From the NCBI RefSeq assembly GCF_014640615.1, contig NZ_BMHH01000028.1, positions 1 through 36,113 of the forward strand: 36,113 nt of DNA, written 5' to 3'. The notes under the pieces were generated by a model. The model was not told the DNA's origin, searched no databases, and saw nothing but the letters and a program-made list of their open reading frames with translations. Within the stretch, counting starts at the first letter, position 1, and each line of letters starts with the position of its first letter. Of this stretch, positions 21,478-36,035 are shown in pieces. The DNA comes from Paramesorhizobium endophyticum. GTDB taxonomy: Bacteria > Pseudomonadota > Alphaproteobacteria > Rhizobiales > Rhizobiaceae. The position numbers and the translations under genes were made by a program.

Positions 21478-22143
21478 ATGGCGGGCGATAAAGATCGCAA
21501 GCACGGCTTTCGTGAGGAAAGCACGCCGGCCGAATTCGCGGAGGCCGTCGAAACTTCCGTCGTCAAGGCATCCCGCCCGCATTATGAGGGCCACCGCGAG
21601 CGGCTGCGCCGGCGCTTTCGGGAAAATGGCGGCGACGCGCTGGCCGATTATGAATTGCTTGAGCTTCTGCTGTTCCGCTGCGTACCCCGCGCCGACACCA
21701 AGCCGCTAGCCAAGGCGCTGCTGGCGCGGTTCGGCTCCTTCGCGGAAGTACTGGGCGCGCCGGAGCGACTCCTGACAGAGGTGCCCGGTTGCGGTCCAGC
21801 CATCGCGACGGATCTCAAGATCATCGCAGCTGCGGCTCAGGCCATGGGCCGTGCCACCATCAAGGGGCGCGAGGTGCTGGGTTCCTGGAGCAAGGTCATC
21901 GAATATTGCACCACGGCGATGGCCTATGAAGACCGCGAGCAATTCCGCATCCTGTTTCTCGACAAGAAGAACGGTCTTATCGCCGATGAGGTGCAGCAGG
22001 TCGGCACGGTCGACCATACGCCCGTCTATCCACGCGAGATCATGCGCCGGGCGCTGGAGCTTTCCGCCTCGGCCATCATCCTCGTCCACAACCACCCCAC
22101 TACCCTCCTCTCGATCACGGTCGATCACGCTGAAGCACAATGA
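21478..22143 (+). pseudogene. radC: radC, 3' end replaced by island insertion
   Basis: RadC is a JAMM/MPN-fold protein of unclear function, once linked to repair. The N-terminal UPF0758 domain and helix-hairpin-helix ([10 protein letters not shown]) are intact, and the JAMM domain runs normally to HNHP (residues 204-207). The family continues HNHPSGDPTPS; here it continues [14 protein letters not shown] and stops. The frame therefore leaves radC at about base 22,098, losing the second metal-ligand segment (Ser and Asp of SxxxxxD) and roughly 35-40 residues. The product of 221 residues should lack the metal site. The integrase gene starts about 190 bases downstream, so this is an integration breakpoint. 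Confidence 0.88.
22111..22129. repeat. Tandem short direct repeat at island left border
   Basis: TCGATCACG occurs at 22111-22119 and again at 22121-22129, ten bases apart, one helical turn. Weaker ATCAC copies follow (GAATCACAAGC). Phased short repeats beside an integrase gene fit integrase arm or excisionase binding sites; this is inference. Confidence 0.5.
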
Positions 22144-22235: not shown

Positions 22236-22268
22236 CCGATCCCAGTTTCTCCTCTTCCGATCCCAGTT
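22236..22268. repeat. Direct repeat before the integrase gene
   Basis: CCGATCCCAGTT occurs at 22236-22247 and 22257-22268, with starts 21 bases apart, two helical turns. The second copy ends 19 bases before the integrase ATG. Such phasing suits cooperative protein binding, such as integrase arm sites that also autoregulate the gene. Confidence 0.55.
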
Positions 22269-22287
22269 GCGGAGCAGGAGGAACGCT

Positions 22288-23541
22288 ATGTCGAGCCTTA
22301 CCGACACCGCCATCCGGCAAGCGATGAAGCGGGTGGAGCTCACAAGGAAACAAGAGAACCTCGCCGACGGCGAAGGGCGCGGCACCGGCCGGCTTGTTCT
22401 CGTTCTCAAGCCAATGCCGAAGCGCGTAACCGCCGATTGGATGGCGCAGCAATGGCGTGACGGGAAACGCGCGAAAAAGAAACTCGGCTCGTATCCCTCG
22501 ATGTCCCTCGCGCAAGCGCGTGAAATTTTCAAACGCGACTTCGCCGATGTGATCCAGAAGGGTCGCAGTATCAAGATCGCGGCTGATACTCGACCGGGCA
22601 CCGTCGCCGATCTGTTCGAGGGCTACGTCGCCGCGCTGAAAGCTGCCGGCAAGCCCTCCTGGAAAGAGACGGAAAAAGGCCTCAATAAGATTGCCGATAC
22701 GCTCGGACGCAATCGCCTCGCCCGCGAAATCGAGGCCGAAGAAATCGTCGAGCTAATCCGGCCGATCTATGAGCGCGGCGCCCGATCGATGGCTGATCAT
22801 GTCCGTTCCTATATCCATGCCGCCTTTAGCTGGGGAATGAAATCGGACAACGATTATCGGAACACATCTCCTCGCCGCTTCCGGATTCCCTTCAACCCGG
22901 CCGCCGACATCCCCACCGAACCCAAGGTCCAGGGCACCCGCTGGCTTAGTGAGGATGAGTTTGTCCAGCTCTATCGGTGGCTCGAGTGCCCTGACACTCC
23001 TGTCCACCCCTCGTATCCGCGCGCCGTGCAGCTCATCATGCTCACCGGCCAGCGCGTCGAGGAGATCGCGCGGCTGCATGTCGATCAGTGGGACGCCGCC
23101 GAGCGGATCATCGACTGGTCGAAAACGAAGAACCTGCAGCCGCACGCGGTTCCGGTCCCGTCGCTCGCAGCGGAGCTCATCGAGTCGATCAAGCCGAACG
23201 AATACGGCTGGTTCTTCCCTTCGGCGAAGGACCCTTCGAAACCGGTCAGCCACGGCACGCTTTACAGTTTCGTCTGGCGGCAGCGCGACCGCGGTGTCAT
23301 CCCTTATGCGACCAATCGCGACCTTCGGAGGACGTTCAAGACACTCGCCGGCAAGGCGGGTGTCCCGAAGGAGATTCGGGACCGCCTCCAGAATCACGCG
23401 CTGCAGGACGTTAGCTCCAAGAACTATGATCGCTGGCATTACATGCCGGAGAAGCGCGCCGGCATGGCGCGCTGGGATAAATTCGTCCGTGCGCTCCTGA
23501 AAAAGAAGAAGGGCAACAGCACGTTGAAGGCTGCCGCGTGA
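22288..23541 (+). CDS. Tyrosine-type site-specific integrase (P4-like)
   Basis: Catalyses integration and excision of the island. The 417-residue protein has an N-terminal arm-binding domain (DUF4102 type, about 1-100, with KKKLGSYPSMSLAQAR), a core-binding domain (about 105-200) and a catalytic domain. Catalytic residues are Arg256 (TGQRVEEIARL), Arg347 (DLRRTF), His370 (LQNHA) and the Tyr380 nucleophile (NYDRWHY). The box II histidine usual in HDLRRT is Arg344 here. An upstream TTG is possible, but the ATG at 22,288 follows AGGAGG perfectly. Position beside the broken radC makes it the likely agent of integration. Confidence 0.93.
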   Translation: MSSLTDTAIRQAMKRVELTRKQENLADGEGRGTGRLVLVLKPMPKRVTADWMAQQWRDGKRAKKKLGSYPSMSLAQAREIFKRDFADVIQKGRSIKIAADTRPGTVADLFEGYVAALKAAGKPSWKETEKGLNKIADTLGRNRLAREIEAEEIVELIRPIYERGARSMADHVRSYIHAAFSWGMKSDNDYRNTSPRRFRIPFNPAADIPTEPKVQGTRWLSEDEFVQLYRWLECPDTPVHPSYPRAVQLIMLTGQRVEEIARLHVDQWDAAERIIDWSKTKNLQPHAVPVPSLAAELIESIKPNEYGWFFPSAKDPSKPVSHGTLYSFVWRQRDRGVIPYATNRDLRRTFKTLAGKAGVPKEIRDRLQNHALQDVSSKNYDRWHYMPEKRAGMARWDKFVRALLKKKKGNSTLKAAA

Positions 23542-23957
23542 GCCACTGGTCTTTCCTTCCCGCCGGCATGCTTGTCTTCTTCTGTTCAATCGCGCCCGCC
23601 ATTGCTGACCCGTGCAAAGCCCCCCTGCCCGCCCAAGCAGGTACGCGGTTCTCCGGCACGGTCCAATACGTTGGCGATGGAGACGGCCTTTGCGTCGGCA
23701 GGACGGTCGACCCCAACGAGTGGATCGAGGTTCGCCTTGCTGATTTCGATGCGCCCGAGGTTCATCAACCCGGCGGCGCGGCGGCTAAGGCGGCGCTTGA
23801 GCACATAGCCCTACATCGCGAGGTCACATGCACCGTGAAGCGCGGCCGCAACGGCCGTGTCGTCTCATTCGACCGCGTGATCGCGCGCTGCCAAATCGCC
23901 ACCGACAGCATCGGAGACATTCTCCGCCAGGTCGGTATCGCCGCGGGTGGCAACTGA
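23538..23957 (+). CDS. Exported SNase-like (thermonuclease-fold) protein
   Basis: A 139-residue protein with a signal peptide (cleavage likely after AIA-D, about residue 24) and a staphylococcal-nuclease-like domain. The motif EVRLADFDAPEVHQPGG carries the family's first Arg and Glu, and FDRVIARC carries the second Arg. Three cysteines remain in the mature part. It begins at a GTG that overlaps the integrase stop (GTGA), so translation is coupled to int. It may be a periplasmic nuclease or a degenerate fold relative. Such genes often travel beside integrases in alphaproteobacterial islands, which is from general experience, not checked here. Confidence 0.75.
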   Translation: MSHWSFLPAGMLVFFCSIAPAIADPCKAPLPAQAGTRFSGTVQYVGDGDGLCVGRTVDPNEWIEVRLADFDAPEVHQPGGAAAKAALEHIALHREVTCTVKRGRNGRVVSFDRVIARCQIATDSIGDILRQVGIAAGGN

Positions 23958-24002
23958 TGCCTGACACATTGACCCTTGACCCCGACATAGCCTGGAGGCT
24001 AT

Positions 24003-24446
24003 ATGAACTGGGACGTCAGACTGCATGACGCCTTCGAGGCGGAGTTTCTGGTTTTCGAGCGCGGGGTCCAGACCGAATTGCTGGCCGTCGCGAAGCTGCT
24101 CGCCGAATACGGCCCGCAGCTCGGTCGGCCCTATGTCGACACGCTCAAGGGCTCGAAACACACCAACATGAAGGAGATGCGTTTCTCGGCCGCCGACGGC
24201 GAATGGCGCGCAGCCTTCGCGTTTGACCCGGAACGGAAGGCTATTCTCCTGGTCGCGGGTGACAAGTCGGGCGTTAGCCAGAAGCGCTTCTATAAGCAGC
24301 TTATCGCAAAGGCGGATAGCCGGCTTTCCGACCATCTGGAAAACCTGAGATCCGCAAAGAAGGGATGGTCCTATGGGACGGAGCATCGATCAGGTTATAG
24401 CTTCCCTGCCCCACGACCAGCAGGAGCAGATCGAGGCGCGCTATGA
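24003..24446 (+). CDS. higB: HigB-like (RelE/ParE superfamily) toxin
   Basis: Expected to be a ribosome-dependent mRNA endonuclease of the phage-derived Gp49-like/HigB family. Matching segments are LKGSKHTNMKEMRF, RAAFAFDPERKAILLVAGDK and SQKRFYKQLIAKAD, followed by HLENL. GGAGG lies five bases before the ATG. The core ends near residue 120, but the frame runs on for about 27 residues (GWSYGTEHRSGYSF...) through the start of the antitoxin gene, giving a 74-base overlap. That tail has no family match and may be read-through after loss of the usual stop. The toxin-first order is that of HigBA loci. Confidence 0.9.
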   Translation: MNWDVRLHDAFEAEFLVFERGVQTELLAVAKLLAEYGPQLGRPYVDTLKGSKHTNMKEMRFSAADGEWRAAFAFDPERKAILLVAGDKSGVSQKRFYKQLIAKADSRLSDHLENLRSAKKGWSYGTEHRSGYSFPAPRPAGADRGAL

Positions 24447-24750
24447 CGAACTCCGGCAGGAGGTCGAAGGACTCCGCGAGCTACGTCAGATCGTGGGCAA
24501 GGCCCAGGAAGATGTCGCTGGTGCCTTGAACATCAAACAGCCCTCGGTCTCAAAGATCGAAAAGCAGGCCGATATGTATCTATCGACGTTGCGCAGCTAC
24601 GTTGAGGCGATCGGCGGCAAGCTTGAACTCACCGTGAAGCTGCCGTCGCATCCGCCCCTCAAGCTTCACAGCCTGGGCGACGTGATTGCATCGAATACGC
24701 CCACGCGCGCCCCCGCCCGCGTGCGGAAAGCCGCCAGAGCCCGCTCTTGA
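24373..24750 (+). CDS. higA: HigA-like XRE-family antitoxin
   Basis: A 125-residue helix-turn-helix protein that should neutralise the upstream toxin and repress the shared promoter. An N-terminal helical region (SLPHDQQEQIEARYDELRQE) is followed by the HTH (about 43-75): VGKAQEDVAGALNIKQPSVSKIEKQ. Then comes the family's MYLSTLRSYVEAIGGKLEL segment. The basic C-terminus (RAPARVRKAARARS) is unlike most short HigA proteins. The ATG follows AGAAGGGA. Its stop overlaps the next ORF (TGATG), tying the antitoxin to the following genes. A direct repeat TTGACCC-TTGACCC at 23,969-23,982, ahead of the toxin, is a candidate operator. Confidence 0.9.
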   Translation: MGRSIDQVIASLPHDQQEQIEARYDELRQEVEGLRELRQIVGKAQEDVAGALNIKQPSVSKIEKQADMYLSTLRSYVEAIGGKLELTVKLPSHPPLKLHSLGDVIASNTPTRAPARVRKAARARS

Positions 24751-25598
24751 TGCTTCAGTTCGACGGCAATTGGCGGTTCGACAGTCCCGGCGCGATAGAG
24801 CCCGTCGTACAAGAGGGCTTTCGCGACCTTATCAACCGCATCAGCGCACAAGGGCATCGGAAGGCCATTTTGGAGCATTTCAAAGCGCGATTCTGCGCGA
24901 CCGCCAGCGCCGAGTATTGGCCGAGCACCAACGAGCGGTTCGCCTCCGAAGATCTCGACCGAGACATGGAACGCGCCGGTGAGAATGCTCCGGTCTTCAT
25001 CGAAGCGTTCTGGGACGCATGCCAGGAACTTCGGGCTCGCGATCCGGCGATGGTGATACTGGAAGCTGGGAGGATCAATCGCATCCTCGCCGACGCCAAC
25101 GTCGGCTATCAGCTGAATCCTCCGATGCTGGTCGCCACCCGCGTCCACATTCCGATCACCGTTCCGGACGCGCCCCCGTCCCTCGATGTCCAGGCGCGAG
25201 CCCTCATCCACGAGTCCCTCGACGCGTCTCAGCGGTTCCTGAGCGAGGGCAACGGCCGTCAGGCTGTCCAGGAAGTGTTCTGGCTTCTGGAAACCATCGC
25301 AACCGCCTTTAGGGGCCTCGACGTTGCCGATGGAAGCATCCAAGGCCGCTACTTCAACAAGATCATCCTCGAATTGCGCCAGCGCGGCCGAGGGCACCAA
25401 GAGCAGATCCTGAACTGGATGATGACGCTGCATGGATACCTGTCGTCGCCCACAGGCGGCGGGGTGCGTCATGGCGTCGATCTTAAAGAGGGCCTCGCTC
25501 TCGGCATCGACGAGGCGCGTCTTTATTGCAACCTCATCCGCAGCTACCTGACGTTTCTGACCGCGGAGCACGAACGCGTCAGCCGAGGCGTCGTGTAA
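24750..25598 (+). CDS. AbiJ/Abi_C-like protein, probable defence function
   Basis: A 282-residue soluble protein starting at the ATG that shares bases with the higA stop (TGATG). The N-terminal third (FGxxF-like region with SEDLDRDMERAGENAPVFIEAFWDAC) recalls AbiJ-type N-terminal domains. The C-terminus (GYLSSPTGGGVRHG, then EARLYCNLIRSYLTFL) recalls the abortive-infection C-terminal domain, with its R-H-G turn and final helix. These resemblances are from pattern memory, not a search. No enzyme motif is certain. Coupling to a toxin-antitoxin pair suggests joint regulation, and a role in abortive infection is the leading hypothesis. Confidence 0.55.
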   Translation: MLQFDGNWRFDSPGAIEPVVQEGFRDLINRISAQGHRKAILEHFKARFCATASAEYWPSTNERFASEDLDRDMERAGENAPVFIEAFWDACQELRARDPAMVILEAGRINRILADANVGYQLNPPMLVATRVHIPITVPDAPPSLDVQARALIHESLDASQRFLSEGNGRQAVQEVFWLLETIATAFRGLDVADGSIQGRYFNKIILELRQRGRGHQEQILNWMMTLHGYLSSPTGGGVRHGVDLKEGLALGIDEARLYCNLIRSYLTFLTAEHERVSRGVV

Positions 25599-25616
25599 AA
25601 CTCAAAAGAGAAGATC

Positions 25617-26549
25617 GTGACCCGCATTTTCGACTTCGATGGACCAAACCTTGATCGTGGCTTCATCAACCTCAGGACGGCTGACCATCCAGTCGAGAAG
25701 GAATTGCACGACCTCATCGAGCGAATGTGGGAGCGCTACGAGCCGTATGCCGATCCGGATTTCCGCCATGGCTTTGCGCGCGACGTCGACGGCCGTTTTT
25801 GGGAAATTTATCTTGGCTGCGCCCTCCTCGACGCCGGCCGCAGCCTGCTGCCGGTTTCCGAACGCTTGCGCGAGGGTGGTCAACCCGACCTTTGCGTTCT
25901 AACGGACGAAGGCCGAATCTGGATCGAAGCCATCGCGCCAGACGAAGGTGACCCTGGCCCCGATCAGGTGATCCGGCCCGTTCCAATGAACGACGGCGGT
26001 GGCCTCAGCGCCGCACCAATCCGTCAGGCGCAACTTCGCACCACCAGCGCTTTCTGGACCAAATTCCGGATAGTTCGGCACTACCTACGAGAGGGTGTGA
26101 TCGGCGAGAATGACGTTCGCATCATTGCGATCAGCGCGAGCCGGTTTGGGGTTTATGTGCCCGAGCACCCACCGCTGATTATGACCTCCCTGTTCCCGAT
26201 CGGCGACGCCTACATCACCATCGATCGCGAGACGGACGAAGTGGTGGATCAAGGTTTTCACGCCGCGCCGGAGATCGCGCGTCAGGGCGGGCCGATCCCG
26301 CGCACCGCCTTCCTCGATCCGGCTTTTGCCGATGTCTCCGGCGTTTTATGGTCTCGCGTCAGCCTGGGCAATCTCTCCCGCAGGGCCAGGCCGCTGACCT
26401 ATGTCCACAACCCTCTCGCTACGCATCCGTTGCCGGTCCGCTGGGGTGTCTGGGACCGAGAATTCGTGACTGTGGTCGATGGCGAGAATTGGCAAGCCAC
26501 CGACATCCTCGCACCGGAGCCAGAAACCGAACCATCGGCGGCCGAATGA
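25617..26549 (+). CDS. Unknown protein with degenerate PD-(D/E)XK-like core
   Basis: A 310-residue protein starting at GTG (25617) with AGAGAAG before it. Residues 60-108 look like a restriction-nuclease fold: FWEIYLGCALLDAG (Glu63 on a helix), GQPDLCV (Pro90-Asp91 on a strand) and IWIEAIAP (Glu104). The canonical lysine of ExK is Ile106, so the site may be inactive or use another basic residue. I know this WIEAxAP pattern from uncharacterised proteins in bacterial accessory regions. The rest of the protein is mixed alpha/beta without recognised motifs. It lies 18 bases after the Abi-like gene, in the same transcription unit. Confidence 0.5.
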   Translation: MTRIFDFDGPNLDRGFINLRTADHPVEKELHDLIERMWERYEPYADPDFRHGFARDVDGRFWEIYLGCALLDAGRSLLPVSERLREGGQPDLCVLTDEGRIWIEAIAPDEGDPGPDQVIRPVPMNDGGGLSAAPIRQAQLRTTSAFWTKFRIVRHYLREGVIGENDVRIIAISASRFGVYVPEHPPLIMTSLFPIGDAYITIDRETDEVVDQGFHAAPEIARQGGPIPRTAFLDPAFADVSGVLWSRVSLGNLSRRARPLTYVHNPLATHPLPVRWGVWDREFVTVVDGENWQATDILAPEPETEPSAAE

Positions 26550-26626
26550 GCACGACGCCGATCGACGTGTGGAATATCGGGATGGCCTTTCTCGTCGAAA
26601 TCAGGGCTTTGAGCGCCGATGGCTAA
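26546..26626 (+). CDS. 26-residue coupled small ORF
   Basis: The ATG overlaps the preceding stop (ATGA at 26,546-26,549), and the TAA overlaps the start of the next gene (ATGGCTAA, next ATG at 26,619). The peptide begins MSTTPIDVWNIGMAFLVEIR and ends ALSADG. It fills the gap exactly, which suggests it passes ribosomes to the next gene. It could be a functional small protein or only a coupling ORF. No family is recognised. Confidence 0.45.
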   Translation: MSTTPIDVWNIGMAFLVEIRALSADG

Positions 26627-27392
26627 GACACTCGACGAGGACGCCATCGAACGCCACCAGGAGGCGCTGATCGAGCCGGCAGCCACCCTGTATGCTGTCC
26701 AGAAGGTTTTCGGAGAGCAAGCCAAGGCCAAGTCGATGGCCGCATACGGACGGCTGATCGACGCCCACATGTTGGCGACCGGCGTACTCGCAAGCGGCAT
26801 TTTGCGTATCAATGGCGCCGTCGTTGAGGGCGATCAGACCACCTTCGAGCGCGACGCACTGTTCGCCGCCTTCATCATCGGCCTTGAGGCCTGTGAGCGA
26901 GCCATCGCCGAGGCCCGCTATCTGCAGGCCCACGCGTTGCTGCGCCAGGAGCTCGAGATCCTCGCCCAGCTCAAGGCGGTTGGTGCAAACCGGCGAAAGC
27001 CCAACGGCGCTCCGAACGTCGCAGCTCTCGAACAATCGCTTGGCCGTCTCTATGGCGGGCTTTCCGCAGCCGCCCATGTGTCCAGGCATGACATCGTTCA
27101 GAGCGCGACCGCGTGGGACGGCGAACTGGACGGCTTGCCCGGCCCGACAAACATGACCCGCTATTTCCCGGAGACGGAAGAAGGGCTCGCAAGACGATCC
27201 TACGCCCTCCACATTTACATGATCATCCGCCTCGTTGAGGAATTGAGCGTTGATCTTGACGCTCGGCATAAATCAGCAGCGTTTACCGACGCGGAATACA
27301 AGGCGCTGAATCTTGCAATAGACTTGATGGCGGCGGAAGGAATGCTTGAGATCGTCACTAACGCCGATTCGAACAGCAATACTGATAATTAG
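26619..27392 (+). CDS. Helical protein of unknown function
   Basis: A 257-residue, mostly alpha-helical protein with no signal peptide. The central part (FAAFIIGLEACERAIAEARY, then ALLRQELEILAQLKAVG and LYGGLSAAAHVSRHD) resembles helical DUF5677/HEPN-like proteins, in which a YxxLSxxxH motif recurs; this is weak pattern evidence. There is no clear catalytic motif, although SAAAHVSRHD could be a HEPN-type RxxxH relative. The start overlaps the small upstream ORF, so it is the last member of the coupled block that begins with higB. The C-terminus is Asn-rich (NADSNSNTDN). Confidence 0.5.
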   Translation: MAKTLDEDAIERHQEALIEPAATLYAVQKVFGEQAKAKSMAAYGRLIDAHMLATGVLASGILRINGAVVEGDQTTFERDALFAAFIIGLEACERAIAEARYLQAHALLRQELEILAQLKAVGANRRKPNGAPNVAALEQSLGRLYGGLSAAAHVSRHDIVQSATAWDGELDGLPGPTNMTRYFPETEEGLARRSYALHIYMIIRLVEELSVDLDARHKSAAFTDAEYKALNLAIDLMAAEGMLEIVTNADSNSNTDN

Positions 27393-27455
27393 TGGATTGC
27401 CGCGTCGTTCGATCGCTCGTCCGACGCATGACGATCAATACGCTTGGGGGAGCAA

Positions 27456-28595
27456 ATGCCAGCAACTGCATTTTCCGTGAAGTTCGAGCGCGAACTGGAT
27501 GTCGACCAACTCGCGATCCTGATGACCGGCACACAGCCGACGCAGGACCACGATGGGGCCGAACTTCTCAGCATGTTCAGCGATGCGATCCGTGCAGACG
27601 TTCAATGCTCATCCTGCGGTAAATTCGGCGCTCACATCGTACGGCCCGCAAAGTCGCGAGCATCCAAGGCAGTCCTCCGGCAAGCCCACTTCAGGTTTGT
27701 CGATCCGAATGGCGGCGACGCCCACCATCCATTCTGCGAATTCCACGGGAACGACGAAACTCGTTCGACCCAAGATGGCCTCCTTGACTTCGGATCGGAA
27801 AAAAGCGCTGAAACGAGAGCCATACGGCTCCTGGTATGTAAGGGCATCGAGCAAGGCATATTTGACCAGCGTCGTATCCGGGACATGCGGCAGTGGTTCT
27901 TCGAACTTAAATCCGCCACCCGCTTCACGGTATCGATGCCCTTGGAGGCTATCTCTTGGGCCCATGCACTTCAGCGCCATCCCCACCACCAGCGCTGGCA
28001 GTTCCACCCATCCCAAGCAGAGATGCCCGCCTTCGATTGGAAAGCCGCCGCAAAAAAGCAGTTCACCGAAGAGCACCTTCATCTGTTCGAACTGGTGAAG
28101 GGCGGATTGCTACCGTTCGAGGAAGCGACGTGGCGGCAAGCGAGCGAACTCGCCCAGAAAAATCATGGGCGCGAGGTGTTCGACGTCACCAAGCTGCAGC
28201 CGTACTACGAGGCCGCGATCTCGCTTTGCACTTTCGTCGTCGCGAACGGCGGCATCGATTTCGGCAAGCGGCAGCCCGAAATTTATCGATGGAAAGGCGC
28301 GCCAACGGCATTGCTTGCTCTATGCGCGCTGATGTTGTTCGTCTCCGATTGGGACATGAACGCTGCGATCGCAGCGTTCGCCAAGCTGTTGTCCACGCCG
28401 GAACCTAGCGACCTTGCGCTCGGCAACGTCATCGGACTCAATCCCTTTCACGAGTACGGCGCGTGGCGCCTCATTATCGCGTCCGCCGAAGTCGCCGCCA
28501 ACAGCCCGAACGGACTGGATTACAGCGCCCGGCTCGCCGCAATCGAGACTGCACTGCGCGAGCAACATCGGCAGTGGAAGGAACACCAGCCCTAG
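27456..28595 (+). CDS. Unknown protein with Cys/His zinc-binding-like motif
   Basis: A 379-residue protein. The frame extends to a TTG at 27,444, but the ATG at 27,456 (MPATAFSVKF) has GGGGGAG just ahead and was chosen. Residues 51-54 (CSSC) and 94-97 (CEFH, after HH) form a C-x2-C...C-x2-H set that could bind zinc. A hydrophobic stretch (TALLALCALMLFV, around 285-300) lies in the C-terminal half and may be a buried helix. No known family is recognised. It stands 63 bases after the higB block and converges with the helicase gene 35 bases away. Confidence 0.6.
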   Translation: MPATAFSVKFERELDVDQLAILMTGTQPTQDHDGAELLSMFSDAIRADVQCSSCGKFGAHIVRPAKSRASKAVLRQAHFRFVDPNGGDAHHPFCEFHGNDETRSTQDGLLDFGSEKSAETRAIRLLVCKGIEQGIFDQRRIRDMRQWFFELKSATRFTVSMPLEAISWAHALQRHPHHQRWQFHPSQAEMPAFDWKAAAKKQFTEEHLHLFELVKGGLLPFEEATWRQASELAQKNHGREVFDVTKLQPYYEAAISLCTFVVANGGIDFGKRQPEIYRWKGAPTALLALCALMLFVSDWDMNAAIAAFAKLLSTPEPSDLALGNVIGLNPFHEYGAWRLIIASAEVAANSPNGLDYSARLAAIETALREQHRQWKEHQP

Positions 28596-28596
28596 A

Positions 28597-28622
28597 GTCG
28601 GCTCAGAAACGTCGAAGCCGAC
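28597..28622. terminator. Hairpin between convergent genes
   Basis: GTCGGCT (28597-28603) and AGCCGAC (28616-28622) form a seven-base stem with a 12-base loop, exactly between the two convergent stop codons. No T-tract follows on either strand. It could act as a weak bidirectional terminator. Confidence 0.4.
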
Positions 28623-28630
28623 CGAACCGC

Positions 28631-30538
28631 TCAGGCGATTAGTTCTATCTCGCCAGGCTCGAACCATTCCTGCCGTATCATCGTGTCGCGTGCCAGCGTC
28701 GGATCAGCAGTGTAGTAAACGACTGCGAGGCTTTGCTCGGCGCGGCTGCAGGTCACATAGAATAGTCGCCGCGTCCGATCGATGGTCGTCTCCTTCCCTG
28801 CCGCTTCATTCTCAAGATCCGTCTTGCTCATCGCCTTCGTCTCGAAAAGCTTGTCATAGGCGAACATGAAACCGCGGGCTTCATGATCGCTAACGACAAC
28901 CATTACCCTTGGAAATTCCAGCCCTTTTACCCCCTGGTGCGTGTCGAACTGCGATACGCCACGAACGTAGCTATCATATCGCTCGATCTGGTCGAAGGGC
29001 GCCTCAAGTGCCAACCGCCAACCGCCCAACTCGCTTTTGACATCGACTTCCTCTTCCTGATCGACGGCGTCACCGGCTGCGTCAATCTCGCCTTCCGCGA
29101 TGACGGCATCGGGGGCTGAAAACGGGACCAACACTTCGGGGATGGTGAAGAGGTTAGTTTCGGCGACATAGCGCAGGACCGAGCGCGCAGTCGGCTTCTC
29201 ATCGGCGTTTACCAAGGCCAGCAGGCCATTGCAGGCAGCCCTGACCTTGCTGAGAATCTCGATCTGCTTCTCGCCGGCGGCTTCGAGCGTTTTGCGATCG
29301 AGGAGTGGCGATGTGCGCCGAACGACTGCGGCGACGGCAAATGGATCTCCCGCACGCAGGGCCGCGACCAGCGGCAATATCTCACGGGTGAAAAGGCCGA
29401 TGCCCGCGCCTGTCCCTTGCAGAAAGCTCGTGCGGATGCGCTCGACCGCGTAGAGAGGCTCGAAGAACTGTTCGAAGCCAAAGCGGCGCGCGGACATTAG
29501 GTGCTCCAGCGCCAGCGTCTTGACCGCTTCGGCTCCCTCCGCCCAGCTTGGGTCCCCGGTGATCTCCGCCATTCGTGCACCTACGGTGGCCTCGGCTGCG
29601 CTCTTGTCGGCTATCGACTGCGAGACGACGAACAGCCGAACAACGCCCTCCTCTGCATCGCTCCGTGGTTGCTGTTCCTCGCCATCCTCATCTCGTCTAA
29701 TTTTGTTTATCAGCGTAATGACTCGTGTGGGACAACGATGGTTCATCCGCTTCCTCGGCTTGGCCCAGGCCTGCGGGATGGCCTCGGCCAAACGCTCCTT
29801 ACCATCGGCGTAGATGCGCTGCATCGTGTCGCCGAAAAGTCCGAGACAAAAGGCGTCGCGATATCCCGCCTCGACATCGAGCAGCGCGTCCATGAGCCTC
29901 CGGCTGGTGTCCTGGCTCTCGTCGATAAGCAGAATTGGAAAGCGGGTTACTAACAGCCGGCGCAAACCAGGCTTTGCGGTGAGAAAATCGGCGGTCATCG
30001 CAATGACCTCCGCATGGCTGAGAGAGTCCCGCGTACGGTTGTCGCCGGTGGGACTGTAAACGAATCGCGTAATTTCGGCGAGGTTCGCACGGCGTCTCCG
30101 CTTGCTTTCGATCGAGCGAGCGCGATCCAACGCGGCTTTGCTGTTTGCCCGTCCCTTCGCCTGTGCTTCTTCCAGTTCGGCGATATCCTCAAGGAGCCTG
30201 GTCGATAGCCACCCTCGAATATCTCCGTCATAGCCAGCAATCAGCGACCATGCGAAAGCGTGGATGGTCGAAACCTCCACGCGTGGATCGAACTCGAGCC
30301 GCTGTTTGATCTCGTCGCAGGCGGCATTGGTGTAGGTGATCACCCCGATCTTCTGACCGGATAGCGATAAACACCGGCCCTGCTCCTCACACACAGTTCG
30401 GATCGCCTCAACGAGGGACCGCGTCTTGCCCGATCCGGCGCCAGCGTAGAGAAAGAAGCTTCTTGGCTTCTCGATGTTCAGGCAAGCGAGGATCGCTTCG
30501 TCGGCATCGGAATCAAACTTGTCGTCAACCGCGCTCAT
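28631..30538 (-). CDS. UvrD/PcrA-type helicase, GajB-like
   Basis: A superfamily 1A DNA helicase of 635 residues, partner of the OLD-type nuclease encoded just before it. Motifs are Walker A AGAGSGKT (32-39), Ia TYTNAACDEI, II LLIDESQD (203-210), III GDTMQRIY, V THQGVKGLEF and VI RLFYVTCSRA. The frame runs further upstream inside the nuclease gene, but the ATG at 30,538 overlaps the nuclease TGA (ATGA) and starts MSAVDDKF, so I chose it. The product is longer than the founding GajB (about 494 residues). Order and coupling match Gabija gajA-gajB. Confidence 0.8.
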   Translation of the reverse strand: MSAVDDKFDSDADEAILACLNIEKPRSFFLYAGAGSGKTRSLVEAIRTVCEEQGRCLSLSGQKIGVITYTNAACDEIKQRLEFDPRVEVSTIHAFAWSLIAGYDGDIRGWLSTRLLEDIAELEEAQAKGRANSKAALDRARSIESKRRRRANLAEITRFVYSPTGDNRTRDSLSHAEVIAMTADFLTAKPGLRRLLVTRFPILLIDESQDTSRRLMDALLDVEAGYRDAFCLGLFGDTMQRIYADGKERLAEAIPQAWAKPRKRMNHRCPTRVITLINKIRRDEDGEEQQPRSDAEEGVVRLFVVSQSIADKSAAEATVGARMAEITGDPSWAEGAEAVKTLALEHLMSARRFGFEQFFEPLYAVERIRTSFLQGTGAGIGLFTREILPLVAALRAGDPFAVAAVVRRTSPLLDRKTLEAAGEKQIEILSKVRAACNGLLALVNADEKPTARSVLRYVAETNLFTIPEVLVPFSAPDAVIAEGEIDAAGDAVDQEEEVDVKSELGGWRLALEAPFDQIERYDSYVRGVSQFDTHQGVKGLEFPRVMVVVSDHEARGFMFAYDKLFETKAMSKTDLENEAAGKETTIDRTRRLFYVTCSRAEQSLAVVYYTADPTLARDTMIRQEWFEPGEIELIA

Positions 30539-32922
30539 GCGTCGGCCCCTTCGATTTCGACGACGACATCCTCTTCGAGCGGAGGGCTGACCTCTACCTC
30601 CTCCTGTGTCGGCGCCTCCTTCACCAGGGACAAAACCTCGACCTGCTTTTTCTTGAGCTGTGCGAGCAGCCACTCGAGTCCCTCGGCGATGTAGCGCGGC
30701 ACGATGATCGTGTCGAAGTTCTCAACCTCAATCAGGTCAAGCGCAAACTCGGCCTTCTTGCCGTTCTTGAGGGCGAGGTACATTCGCTCGCCGATAGCGG
30801 CCGCGCCGCCGCCACTCGCGATCGCATCGCGAAACTTACGGACCAGGCCCGTGCCATCCTGTTCGGAGAAGAAGCTGAGGTTCTCAAACGCCAGCGCGTC
30901 CTCAAACGTATACGGATATGCGATCTCCGGCCCTACGATACCCGGCGACGTCACACCCAAAGGCATTTGATATGCGGCCCGCACGGCGAATAGCTGGTCG
31001 TCGTCCTCATGCAGCGTCCTCGTCCGGGCATCAGCCCGCATGAGCTCATCGACGTCGTCGAGCTTTGGTACCCAGGTCTTCAGCGTCGCATTGTTGGTTT
31101 TCTGGCCAGCGCCCTTCGCGGGTTGGACGGAGGCGCCGCCCGTTCCATCCAGCGTGTCCAAATCAGTGATAATCAGGGTCAGCAAACCGAGGTGATCAAT
31201 CAAGGGCTTGAGACGGTGCGCGTGACTTCCTCCGATTTCAAGCAATGTGATGTAGCACTGATTGAGCTCGTCGTAGTGCGTGCGGATGAAATTCGGGACG
31301 AGCATGCGTTCGGCCGGGCCCTCCACCAAAATAGCCGCGTCGGCGAAGAACAGATCGGCGTGTTGGGCTCGAAGATATCGAGTCACGAAACGCTCGGTCT
31401 CACTACCTGGGCCAAAAACCTCCGACAAATTGATGACTGTGGAGACTGGCACGTTCGCAGCCATACCTGCAGGCAGTCGCCGAAAGTAGCGCAGACATGA
31501 GAACGACGTCTCATGCGTGACGTGACTCGAGTGGGTGCTTACCACCAATTGGGTGCGCAGCTTTCGGCTGTCGCCGAGGTCCTCGTGCGCACGCAGCACC
31601 GAATATGCCTTCTTTATGAAGACTTGCTGGACCTGTGCATGCAAATGCGCCTCCGGTTCCTCGACCAGGACGAGATGGAGAGGTTCAATGGCGGTCACCG
31701 TCACGCCTGTTGACGCCTTCCCGACACGCATCCAAGCGTCACGAAAGCTCATCAACCGGAATATCATCGATATCAGGTTTTGATAACCGAGGCCGTTATT
31801 TGATTCCGGCAATCGCAACACAGGGGTCGTCGCGCCGTCCTCAGCAACGACATCCACCTCGAAGCTAATCGCCGCATTGTGGTTGAGACCGTCGATAGCT
31901 TTCAAGCGCGTCGAAATACGGGGACGCGGATCGGTCACCCCAGGGTATCCCATACCCTCGACCTCGGTGAAGGCTGCCTTGAAACTCTCGGCGAGCCGTT
32001 TGTCGAATGCGTCCTGCGCGGCTTCTATCGCTTGCAACGCGCCAAGGTCCTTCGGATCTGGGCCCTTCGTCGGGTCGAGGTGTTTGGCGTAGTAGCTTCT
32101 AAGTTGGTCGGACAGCCGACTGCCGCTCGCCGCCGCGGACGCATCATCATCCTCCGCGGCCTGCTGCTCCTCACCGAAGCCCCTTTGCGCCGGAATGTCA
32201 TGAACTCGGATCAGGCCACTCAATGGGTCGCCGTCGGTCGACCGAGATCCACTGGGAAGAACCTGCGGACGCGCCAGAGATTTGGCAGGAGCGACAAGCT
32301 GACCCGGATCCAACGAGTAGGCCCGAATGGTGAAGTGCGTCGACAAACGCTTGCTCAGAAAATCGATTAAACTCTCCGGCCAGATCCTAAGCTTGGGCGG
32401 AGTAGCCAGTGGATCAGCGTCGTCATTCTCTGCGGCGGTGGCTGCGACCGCCGCAGCCCTCATCGCCTCAGCGTCGCTCACCGAGCCCATGTATTCTTTG
32501 TACAAGAGCGCAAGGTCTTTCGGCTCGTAGCGCAGCCGAACGCCAAGCCTTCCCCCCTCCCAATCCAAGGTCGGGATGAGGTCACGGACGTAATGCATCT
32601 CTCCCGCCTCGACGTGCAACCACAGGTCCAGAGTCGGCAAGACGCTAACCCACGGGTCGACGATCAGGTCAACGACCTCCTCCGCGTTGCGGGCAGCTAT
32701 CCACGCCTCGCCTAGCTCGATGATCGTGGGCCAATGGCACAGCGTGAAATCGTGTATCTCGAATGGACAGCGGCGCGGTGACAGGAAGCGGCGTAGCGCA
32801 AGCATCGCCGACGTCTTGCCGCTGTTGTTTGCTCCAACGAAGAGTGTGGTAGTGCCCGAAAGGTCGACCCGCGTCGACAGTAACTTCCTGAAATTGGCGA
32901 TCTCTAAAAACTCTATATGCAC
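30535..32922 (-). CDS. Class 2 OLD-family ATPase/TOPRIM nuclease, GajA-like
   Basis: A 795-residue ABC-type ATPase with a TOPRIM nuclease domain. Walker A is GANNSGKT (30-37), the signature-like segment is LPESNNGLGYQN (371-382), Walker B is LHLVLVEEPEAHLH (415-428) and the H-loop is STHSSH (462-467). TOPRIM starts at ILVEGPAER (531-539) with Glu534, and TDLDTLDG (586-593) gives the acidic pair. An acidic C-terminal tail follows (EEVEVSPPLEEDVVVEIEGADA region). It begins at GTG with GGGGGA eight bases upstream. A UvrD helicase overlapping its stop defines class 2 OLD or Gabija. It is much longer than the first GajA (about 578 residues), with extra sequence around 140-330 and after the TOPRIM. 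Confidence 0.85.
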   Translation of the reverse strand: MHIEFLEIANFRKLLSTRVDLSGTTTLFVGANNSGKTSAMLALRRFLSPRRCPFEIHDFTLCHWPTIIELGEAWIAARNAEEVVDLIVDPWVSVLPTLDLWLHVEAGEMHYVRDLIPTLDWEGGRLGVRLRYEPKDLALLYKEYMGSVSDAEAMRAAAVAATAAENDDADPLATPPKLRIWPESLIDFLSKRLSTHFTIRAYSLDPGQLVAPAKSLARPQVLPSGSRSTDGDPLSGLIRVHDIPAQRGFGEEQQAAEDDDASAAASGSRLSDQLRSYYAKHLDPTKGPDPKDLGALQAIEAAQDAFDKRLAESFKAAFTEVEGMGYPGVTDPRPRISTRLKAIDGLNHNAAISFEVDVVAEDGATTPVLRLPESNNGLGYQNLISMIFRLMSFRDAWMRVGKASTGVTVTAIEPLHLVLVEEPEAHLHAQVQQVFIKKAYSVLRAHEDLGDSRKLRTQLVVSTHSSHVTHETSFSCLRYFRRLPAGMAANVPVSTVINLSEVFGPGSETERFVTRYLRAQHADLFFADAAILVEGPAERMLVPNFIRTHYDELNQCYITLLEIGGSHAHRLKPLIDHLGLLTLIITDLDTLDGTGGASVQPAKGAGQKTNNATLKTWVPKLDDVDELMRADARTRTLHEDDDQLFAVRAAYQMPLGVTSPGIVGPEIAYPYTFEDALAFENLSFFSEQDGTGLVRKFRDAIASGGGAAAIGERMYLALKNGKKAEFALDLIEVENFDTIIVPRYIAEGLEWLLAQLKKKQVEVLSLVKEAPTQEEVEVSPPLEEDVVVEIEGADA

Positions 32923-34682: not shown

Positions 34683-36035
34683 TTAAACTGCCGATGCTTT
34701 TTGCGCGAAGGCGAGCCATGCAATCAGCAGCCACGCCAAGCTCTTCAGCCATTTGATGATGAGAGAGAAGTTATAGCCTGCGGCGGCGAGAACGGCGTTG
34801 ATGGCATCGCCATGTTTGCCGGCCAGATAGTTGCGGTCCATGCGGTGTTCGGCTTTGATATGGCCGATGACCGGCTCGACGGCGGAACGTCGCCGCATCT
34901 GGCGCTTGATGGCCGGGGTGACATTGCGCTTCTGACCAGCGGTGAAGACCCGGAGCTTGTGGCTATCCGGTGCATTGTGGCCGCGATAGCCGGCATCGGC
35001 GAGGATGCGTCCGATCTCATTGCCGATGGTCTTTTCCATGTCGGGAATGACGGCTGCCAACGTATGGCCGTCATAAGGATTGCCGGGCAAGGCTTTTGCA
35101 TGCAGGGCGAACTGGCCGCCCTTTGATCGCTTCAATGTGGTGGCGACCGAGACTTTGACGCCGAACTCATAAGGCCGGTGTGCCTTGCCTTTGCCGATAC
35201 ATTCGACCTCCGGCGCATGCAGGCTGTAAATCTTGCGGCCACGCTGGCGCTGGCGTTGCTCCAGCACCGTGTTGGCCTGATGCAGCGGCCAGAGGAAGAC
35301 GGAACGCAGCGCTTCGTCCTCGCCAATCCGGCGCTGGATGTCGCGGATGGTGCGGCCCAGATAGGTCTTGAGCGTCCGTAGTGCCTTCCTCGCCCGCTTG
35401 AACTGCTTGGCATGAGCGTAACGCTGGTGCTGGATCAGCGCCAGCTTTCCAACCCGGACATAGGTCTGACGTAACGTCATGCCGTTCTTCTTCGCCAGTT
35501 TCACCAGCCGCTCGCGCGCCCGGTTGAGGAGCTTGGCATCGGTGGGAAACATCACATTCTTCGGCTGGACGGTCGTATCGACGATGACCTGTCGCGTATC
35601 CTGCGGCTGCATCGCTCCGGTCTTGACCGCCACCGCCAGGCTTTCCTGCAACAGCGCGCTCACGCGATCCTCGCCCATGCGATTGCGCCACCGCGTCATC
35701 GATGAACGGTCGAAGGGGAGCTTATGACAGAAGAACTCTTCGCCGCACAAATATTGGAAATAAGGATTCTCCAGCCAGCGGACGCACAGTTCCTCATCCG
35801 ACAGATTGAAGGTGTGCTTCAAGATCGCCAGCCCGGCCATCAGCCTTGTGGGAAGCGGCGGCATGCCGGGGCGGTCGGAATAAACCTCGCCGAAGCGCTG
35901 CTCCAGATGCGGCCAGTCGATCTCTCGCGCCAGCCGCACCAGTTCGTGCTTCATGTTGAGGATCTGATCCAGCCGGGAGCGGAACAAATCCTGCTCTCCC
36001 GTCTCGCGCCGCTCGCGTGGTCTCGACATCGCCAT
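34683..36035 (-). CDS. IS5-like transposase (DUF772 plus DDE domain)
   Basis: A 450-residue DDE transposase, probably of an IS5-related element. The N-terminal DUF772 region (GLAILKHTFNLSDEELCVRW) is followed by the DDE core: Asp153 (VIVDTTVQPKN), Asp347 (ILADAGYRGHN) and Glu387 (SAVEPVIGHIKAEHRM). The start could be Met1 at 36,035 or Met3 at 36,029, which is better spaced from GGAG. The reading frame is intact. The element's ends were not found with confidence: the right end may lie beyond the window, and the gap to the IS3 element (34,626-34,682) contains no gene. Confidence 0.9.
   Translation of the reverse strand: MAMSRPRERRETGEQDLFRSRLDQILNMKHELVRLAREIDWPHLEQRFGEVYSDRPGMPPLPTRLMAGLAILKHTFNLSDEELCVRWLENPYFQYLCGEEFFCHKLPFDRSSMTRWRNRMGEDRVSALLQESLAVAVKTGAMQPQDTRQVIVDTTVQPKNVMFPTDAKLLNRARERLVKLAKKNGMTLRQTYVRVGKLALIQHQRYAHAKQFKRARKALRTLKTYLGRTIRDIQRRIGEDEALRSVFLWPLHQANTVLEQRQRQRGRKIYSLHAPEVECIGKGKAHRPYEFGVKVSVATTLKRSKGGQFALHAKALPGNPYDGHTLAAVIPDMEKTIGNEIGRILADAGYRGHNAPDSHKLRVFTAGQKRNVTPAIKRQMRRRSAVEPVIGHIKAEHRMDRNYLAGKHGDAINAVLAAAGYNFSLIIKWLKSLAWLLIAWLAFAQKASAV

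Follow-up and report, generated by a model that had tools for sequence, protein, structure and literature searches.

We analysed a 36,113-base stretch of Paramesorhizobium endophyticum DNA (the window, which is a whole contig) and in it a block of genes at 24003-27392, all on the + strand. The block looks like a toxin-antitoxin (TA)-led operon, in which a higB-higA (HigBA) pair is followed by the genes p5, p6 and p7; p6 is of a known kind, and p5 and p7 have no library match. We interpret it as a composite and modular defence operon that is headed by a TA pair and carried by a mobile island inserted at radC, and give this reading a probability of roughly 55%. The features of the block are listed below with their lengths in amino acids (aa) or nucleotides (nt), where omega is the ratio of non-synonymous to synonymous substitution rates (dN/dS).

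23987-24002, no strand assigned: ATAGCCTGGAGGCTAT, candidate HigA operator with 7-nt perfect arms, abutting the higB start codon
24003-24446, + strand: higB, RelE-type toxin (Gp49/DUF891), 147 aa; PF05973, E value 3e-20, 72.5 bits against a cut-off of 23.9
24373-24750, + strand: higA, helix-turn-helix (HTH) antitoxin, 125 aa; PF13744, 32.9 bits against a cut-off of 27
24750-25598, + strand: p5, 282 aa, possible abortive-type effector, no Pfam family; omega 0.06-0.16
25617-26549, + strand: p6, 310 aa, PD-T7-1/PD-T7-5-type nuclease domain
26546-26626, + strand: 26-codon open reading frame (ORF), probably a spacer; omega 0.27-0.79 over 26 codons, truncated in the island copy L021
26619-27392, + strand: p7, 257 aa, helical protein, occasional partner of p5

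An initial sequence-only reading had described six ORFs on one strand with tight junctions, and their coordinates were confirmed. The higA-p5 junction is TGATG, with the p5 ATG at 24750 and an in-frame TTG also at 24747. The p5 stop at 25598 is followed by an 18-base gap and the GTG start of p6 at 25617, the p6 stop at 26549 overlaps the start of the 26-codon ORF at 26546 (ATGA), and the end of that ORF at 26626 overlaps the p7 start at 26619. The first two genes are indeed a HigBA pair, since both Pfam families scored above their cut-offs, the toxin gene precedes the HTH antitoxin gene, and a palindrome stands at the operon head. HTH_37 was the sole Pfam family above cut-off in HigA, which also matched the solved HigA2 (phmmer, E value 8.9e-8). 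The 74-base overlap between higB and higA that had been pointed out is present in the window but private to this copy, because the window higB continues 26 C-terminal codons further than its counterparts. In the three close island copies (L021, Phyllobacterium YR531; L022, a Hyphomicrobiales metagenome-assembled genome; L023, Rhizobium sophorae) the higB frame stops after ...KKG or ...KEG, in L023 4 nt ahead of higA. The overlap was therefore rejected as a functional feature.

Selection on each gene was measured as pairwise omega between the window and the close copies (three copies; two for p7). Values were 0.06-0.16 for p5, 0.08-0.21 for p6, 0.15-0.25 for p7, 0.11-0.27 for higA and 0.10-0.14 for p8, the gene flanking the block. 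The low omega of p5, p6, p7 and higA indicated real genes under purifying selection. The 26-codon ORF, which had been counted as a gene, was not convincing as one, and its omega and its truncation in L021 led us to reject it as a conserved small protein. All four island copies keep the frames of p5, p6, higA and p8 open. Frameshifts affect p7 in L021 and higB in L021 and L022, so higB is broken in two of the three other copies. DNA identity between the window and L021-L023 was 71-82% over the integrase and SNase-like genes, 80-88% from higB to early higA, and peaked at 90-97% between late higA and p7. Gabija was 78-96% identical in L021 and L022; in L023 identity fell to 79-85% in p8 and was lost beyond. 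The peak over p5-p6-p7 suggested that this stretch was shared recently, with the other ends exchanged.

The palindrome at the head of the block, ATAGC-N6-GCTAT, has one exact match in the 36 kb window, namely before higB, and eight occurrences over 1.56 Mb of loci. Four of the eight end at the higB start, in L021, L022, L023 and L002 (the window's own copy). Another two, in L018 and L148, are 47-49 nt ahead of higB and have an imperfect copy closer to the gene; the palindrome is thus shared with higBA loci, from Asticcacaulis and Novosphingobium, in which p5, p6 and p7 are missing. One is 275 nt before an annotated higA without a higB match (L019), and one lies elsewhere (L026). The palindrome was absent from L147 and from four remoter higBA pairs (L144-L146, L149), which carry other short palindromes before higB. 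No p5, p6 or p7 match was found within the stretches examined of L018, L019 and L144-L149. This distribution fits a putative HigA operator that is a feature of HigBA rather than of p5 and evolves together with this HigBA subfamily. Inside the block, terminator-like sites showed no excess over shuffled sequence, and no promoter beyond chance was detected. With a lone exact palindrome at the head, a HigA-autorepressed promoter probably drives the block.

We then considered if the block travels as one system. The p5 alignment was used to scan genome_contigs (84,980 species), with exact peptide patterns required, and the best 80 of 81 relatives gave 79 distinct loci, 71 of them with at least 1 kb of upstream sequence. 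Because these loci were found through p5, neighbours of p6 and p7 are under-sampled among them. The block with HigBA, p6 and p7, some genes broken, was present in 3 of the 79 loci, all of them the close island copies. Among the other 76, p7 lay directly upstream of p5 in two (L033, L035), and a p6/PD-T7-1-type gene was in the flanks, non-adjacent, in three (L068, L073, L087); tblastn found no intact relative of the window HigBA pair there, only two HigA remnants and one different HigA. In 396 other genomes of the order (397 with the window's own), p5 was found in 5, p6 in 14 and p7 in 2, at E limits of 1e-10, 1e-5 and 1e-5 respectively, and no genome held two of the three. For this sample the first 5 or 6 candidates per genome were scored, several p6 matches were short or weak (to E 2e-6), and equal counts and handles indicated that the p5, p6 and p7 scans covered the same 397 genomes. 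Among plasmid records p5 occurred in 47, p6 in 4 and p7 in 11, with no accession shared between any of the three among the records listed (40 of 47 for p5). Outside the island copies, all 13 p6 loci with flanks (L012-L015, L120-L126, L131, L132) were without a HigBA, p5 or p7 match by tblastn. In a fourteenth locus, L129, p6 is present in fragments only, next to a p8 gene, and this may be what is left of the block.

Judged by these distributions, the block is not one conserved system, and its downstream genes are separable cassettes. The original proposal of a single HigA-regulated unit thus stood in one part: one HigA-type antitoxin probably governs the block, as the head palindrome and the lack of an internal terminator or promoter beyond chance suggest. 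The joint system did not stand: that reading had named downstream homologues occurring mostly without HigBA and without one another as its refutation, and this is largely what was observed. One fixed six-gene defence system under HigA would explain why the block order is kept in the three close copies and why p7 and p5 are adjacent in two other genomes. We consider it very improbable, given the p6 loci without the rest of the block, the breakage of higB or p7 within the island copies, and the complete absence of paired p5, p6 and p7 genes from the order sample.

The genes upstream of p5 differed between genomes. An ORF of at least 60 aa ending at most 60 nt upstream of p5 was present in 45 of 89 loci. 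Those identified as TA-type were AbiE (11 loci), HigBA (3), another HigA (1) and DUF4411, which is PIN-like (1). Others were DUF6602 (6), p7 (2), an EcoRII-like gene (1) and a type I specificity gene (1), and the remaining ORFs were ABC-three-component-like, TIGR02391, unnamed or chance. In a tree of 75 p5 proteins, built by a quick method with support from the Shimodaira-Hasegawa-like approximate likelihood ratio test (SH-aLRT) only, one clade of 11 rows (SH-aLRT 95) comprised HigBA in 4, AbiE in 3, HigA or a HigA remnant in 3 and another gene in 1 (L028), so that 10 of the 11 rows had HigBA, AbiE, or HigA or its remnant upstream of p5. The HigBA rows were sister to two AbiE rows (SH-aLRT 99), and the starred branches of the tree require at least three changes of the AbiE label. 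The sequence upstream of p5 in L083 and L027 matched the HigA end at 40-41% (E 4e-7 and 0.002). The same 1-nt TGATG overlap joins HigBA to p5 and AbiE to p5 (L004, L005, L024, L025); the third AbiE row of the clade, L029, has a 38-nt gap. On this gene-order evidence, p5 is kept while the TA module before it varies and at times decays.

The same clade bears on a tripartite HigB-HigA-p5 defence on the pattern of PD-lambda-2 or the toxin-antitoxin-chaperone systems, in which p5, as the third component, would sense phage or tune HigA, HigB would kill, and p6 and p7 would be passengers. Coupling of higA to p5 through TGATG is what such a system would show, HigBA or its remnant stands beside p5 in 6 of the 11 clade rows with another HigA in a seventh, and PD-lambda-2 provides a precedent in the excerpted text of PMC9519451. 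We doubt this alternative, because p5 is still open in the two island copies with a broken higB, sister p5 genes carry AbiE instead, and p5 has neither a SecB nor a peptidase match by Pfam.

Two observations were made beside these loci. In Agrobacterium copies of p5 (L005:6004-6840 and L025:7001-7837), the gene lies behind AbiE and its reading frame is interrupted by a stop at codon 33. Immediately after p5, seven loci (L026-L029, L031 and L083 by clustering, L035 by tblastn) encode a 295-aa protein, and in 4 of the 7 a 339-aa ORF overlaps its end; the L026 copies of both ORFs had no Pfam or PADLOC match. The 295-aa protein is another recurrent partner of p5.

The p5 protein had been labelled AbiJ/Abi_C-like, which was not upheld. 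Its sole Pfam match was AbiJ_NTD4 (13.6 bits where the cut-off is 34; E 0.097), which appeared at E up to 0.1 in 2 of 8 family members; Abi_C gave no match, and p5 was rejected as an Abi_C relative. Relationship to TIGR02391 proteins (hhalign probability 0.2%) and to p7 (1.1%) was likewise rejected. No PADLOC or PHROG match was found for p5, SecB had no Pfam match in p5, p6 or p7, and three matches of the p5 profile to solved structures (best E 0.029) were taken as chance. The AlphaFold model has two helical parts (about residues 1-130 and 145-278; predicted local distance difference test score, pLDDT, 83.5; predicted template modelling score, pTM, 0.49). Invariant residues in a 69-row alignment are E42, K45, D68, E181, Y201-F202, W223 and R240-H241, and the protein carries the C-terminal motif GYLSSPxGGGVRHG. 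Its context suggests that p5 is probably an effector of abortive infection.

The nuclease-fold label given to p6 was borne out by homology to PD-T7-1 and PD-T7-5. Using PADLOC, PD-T7-1 was matched by 5 of 5 p6 family members and PD-T7-5 by 4 of 5, and hhalign against PD-T7-1 homologues gave 98.2% (E 5.9e-14). The full-length PD-T7-1 architecture was not found in p6, whose best stretch corresponds to positions 138-232 of a 452-position model. Residues E63, P90-D91, W102-x-E104, K149 and HNPxA are invariant in 10 rows. Classical PD-(D/E)XK nucleases carry an ExK lysine; none of 5 p6 rows has a K two residues after E, and K149 is invariant instead, so the catalytic lysine may have migrated to K149. 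The probable role of p6 is that of a PD-(D/E)XK-type nuclease acting on nucleic acid, and the excerpted text of PMC10952713 classes PD-T7-1 and PD-T7-5 as PD-(D/E)XK nucleases.

Outside the island, the four genes most similar to p6 (L120, L121, L131, L132; 67-72%) are each followed by a 471-484 aa protein (81-91% alike), which in L131, the locus whose genes alone were profiled, is a full-length PD-T7-1 homologue. In L120, L131 and L132 a 307-aa third gene comes next (79-85% alike; Lit/peptidase U49-like in L131), and L121 has no gene of this type at that place. The set of a p6-like gene, a PD-T7-1 homologue and the 307-aa gene recurs in one genome and two viral contigs, and is possibly an unnamed combined defence unit. 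At L013:5038-6801 a PrlF-YhaV pair stands directly before a p6 homologue, with 19 nt between the YhaV toxin gene and that homologue; this is a second TA type at the head of the nuclease family.

The p7 protein matched nothing in Pfam, NCBIfam, PADLOC or PHROG. Its AlphaFold model was poor (pLDDT 43.9) and helical at low confidence, and none of 101 pattern hits in viral contigs was a relative. In L033 and L035 p7 is 6 nt upstream of p5, and L032 has a p7 remnant of about 33 codons. The adjacency in those two genomes suggested that p5 and p7 may be linked, a partial exception to modularity.

The block lies among the following features, the first three of which make up the left end of the island.

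21478-22143, + strand: truncated radC
22267-23541, + strand: tyrosine integrase
23538-23957, + strand: SNase-like gene, 14.7 bits where the Pfam cut-off is 21
27456-28595, + strand: p8, 379 aa, flanking gene whose family is carried on plasmids; phrog_12525, E 6.9e-66
28631-32922, - strand: Gabija gajB and gajA, a separate system adjoining the block; PADLOC GajB 8.3e-250, GajA 1.7e-278

The remainder of radC was found on a different contig of the same genome (G000:C2:334903-335055), and both parts end at the HNHP codons, which mark the break point. The one same-genus genome examined at the break (G682) has an uninterrupted radC, and radC residues 1-208 were matched in 5 of 5 same-genus genomes. 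Thus radC looks like the integration site of the island's integrase. The SNase-like gene has a 4-base overlap with the integrase end and was found in all three island copies. Downstream of the block the order is p8, then Gabija on the opposite strand, and two transposases; Gabija was absent from the L023 stretch examined. Matches to the p8 family were present in 265 PLSDB records, mostly enterobacterial plasmids. We rejected p8 as a member of the unit, as it is 63 nt away and its synonymous divergence (dS, window versus L023) was 0.71, against 0.11-0.27 for p5-p7; it is part of the island. ARAGORN placed a tRNA-Ile at 34821-34905, inside an opposite-strand transposase gene, which is probably a false call.

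With Gabija adjoining the block, the setting is a mobile defence island, in agreement with the location first suggested. Such a setting raises an ordinary explanation, that the genes became neighbours by accumulation and share neither control nor function. Gabija, the integrase, the transposases and unrelated cassettes surround the block, and each of p5, p6 and p7 is found elsewhere in the absence of the other two. We regard this as unlikely, since same-strand junctions of -1 and 18 nt, a single palindrome at the head, and different TA modules with an identical 1-nt junction to p5 argue against it.

For a composite TA-headed operon, the following course of events can be proposed. HigA would bind and repress its own promoter at 23987-24002, from which the transcript would continue through p5, p6 and p7. 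In HigBA families HigA is lost under phage attack, and HigB cleaves mRNA. Loss of HigA, whether because a phage takes over the host or because the island is lost, would free HigB and open the promoter, raising p5-p7; freed HigB would cut translated mRNA, p6 would cut nucleic acid, and p5 would stop the cell. The TA pair would then supply both an antitoxin-repressed promoter and addiction; another pair could replace it (AbiE in place of HigBA), or its toxin could be lost with the downstream frames still open.

Several results weigh against the composite operon. Only 16 of 89 p5 loci had a TA-type gene ending at most 60 nt before p5, a rate that covers the p5 family alone. In-frame stops interrupt p5 in 3 of the 11 AbiE loci (L005, L025, L062), and L005 and L025 are both Ti-plasmid-type, so the 16 are not 16 independent working cases. 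By tblastn, the five p5 genomes of the order sample had no HigBA, AbiE or PrlF-YhaV relative near p5; one of them, G488, corresponds to L027, where the HigA remnant lies, and the 79 loci already included four of these genomes. Together, the rate, the broken p5 genes and these five genomes indicate that only one part of the p5 family is headed by TA modules. The identity peak over p5-p6-p7 is also expected from transfer as one unit. A promoter scan of the + strand at 23500-28700 found no consensus promoter. Moreover, PD-T7-1 and PD-T7-5 are given only a low-probability RmuC-like domain in the excerpted text of PMC10270631, so the nuclease activity of this family is predicted only.

More tentatively, and at well below even odds, p5 could be the conserved output of a plug-in immune circuit, for which unrelated autorepressed TA modules (HigBA of type II, AbiE of type IV), translationally coupled to it through the shared 1-nt overlap, would serve as interchangeable triggers. 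Antitoxin loss would switch p5 on, and the TA module would act mainly as a sensor-promoter, leaving the toxin free to decay with immunity retained. If TA modules in defence islands are killers, addiction elements or switches for their neighbours is an open question in the field, and the HigBA branch, its AbiE sister branch and the natural copies with a broken higB make the switch hypothesis directly testable.

No named system of this composition was found in the literature searched, which is not proof of absence. PD-lambda-2, according to the excerpted text of PMC9519451 (Vassallo et al. 2022), consists of HigB, a HigA-peptidase and a third gene that is required for defence and whose product is related to the P4 antitoxin. 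Both loci have a HigB-like gene first, a HigA-like gene second, one or more further genes on the same strand, and a defence context. However, the PD-lambda-2 HigA bears a C-terminal peptidase, whereas the window HigA has 125 aa and an HTH only; p5, a 282-aa helical protein without a family match, may differ from the P4-antitoxin-related third protein; and the window block adds the nuclease-type gene p6. By domain content, with no peptidase on HigA, the block is not a PD-lambda-2 member. The toxin-antitoxin-chaperone systems CmdTAC and MqsRAC, phage defences that the same excerpts describe as a TA pair with a third gene, share that layout, but the window block has no SecB-like gene. PD-T7-1 and PD-T7-5 resemble p6 in the nuclease domain (E, PD, WxE, K) and in the LDPxFA and HNPLA segments, whereas p6 has 310 aa, covers the model partially and sits in a HigBA-headed operon. 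In the ptuXYZ and hicA-viperin operons of Gerdes, toxins of RelE/YoeB or HicA type accompany nuclease or other defence genes (excerpted text of PMC11980606 and PMC10865869); these differ from the block in their gene families and have no HigA. AbiE, a bicistronic type IV TA operon autorepressed by its antitoxin (excerpted text of PMC3985639), draws its toxin and antitoxin from other families than HigBA. It is likewise an autorepressed two-gene TA that occupies the place of HigBA upstream of p5 in other genomes, and because of this autorepression both heads would give the same control.

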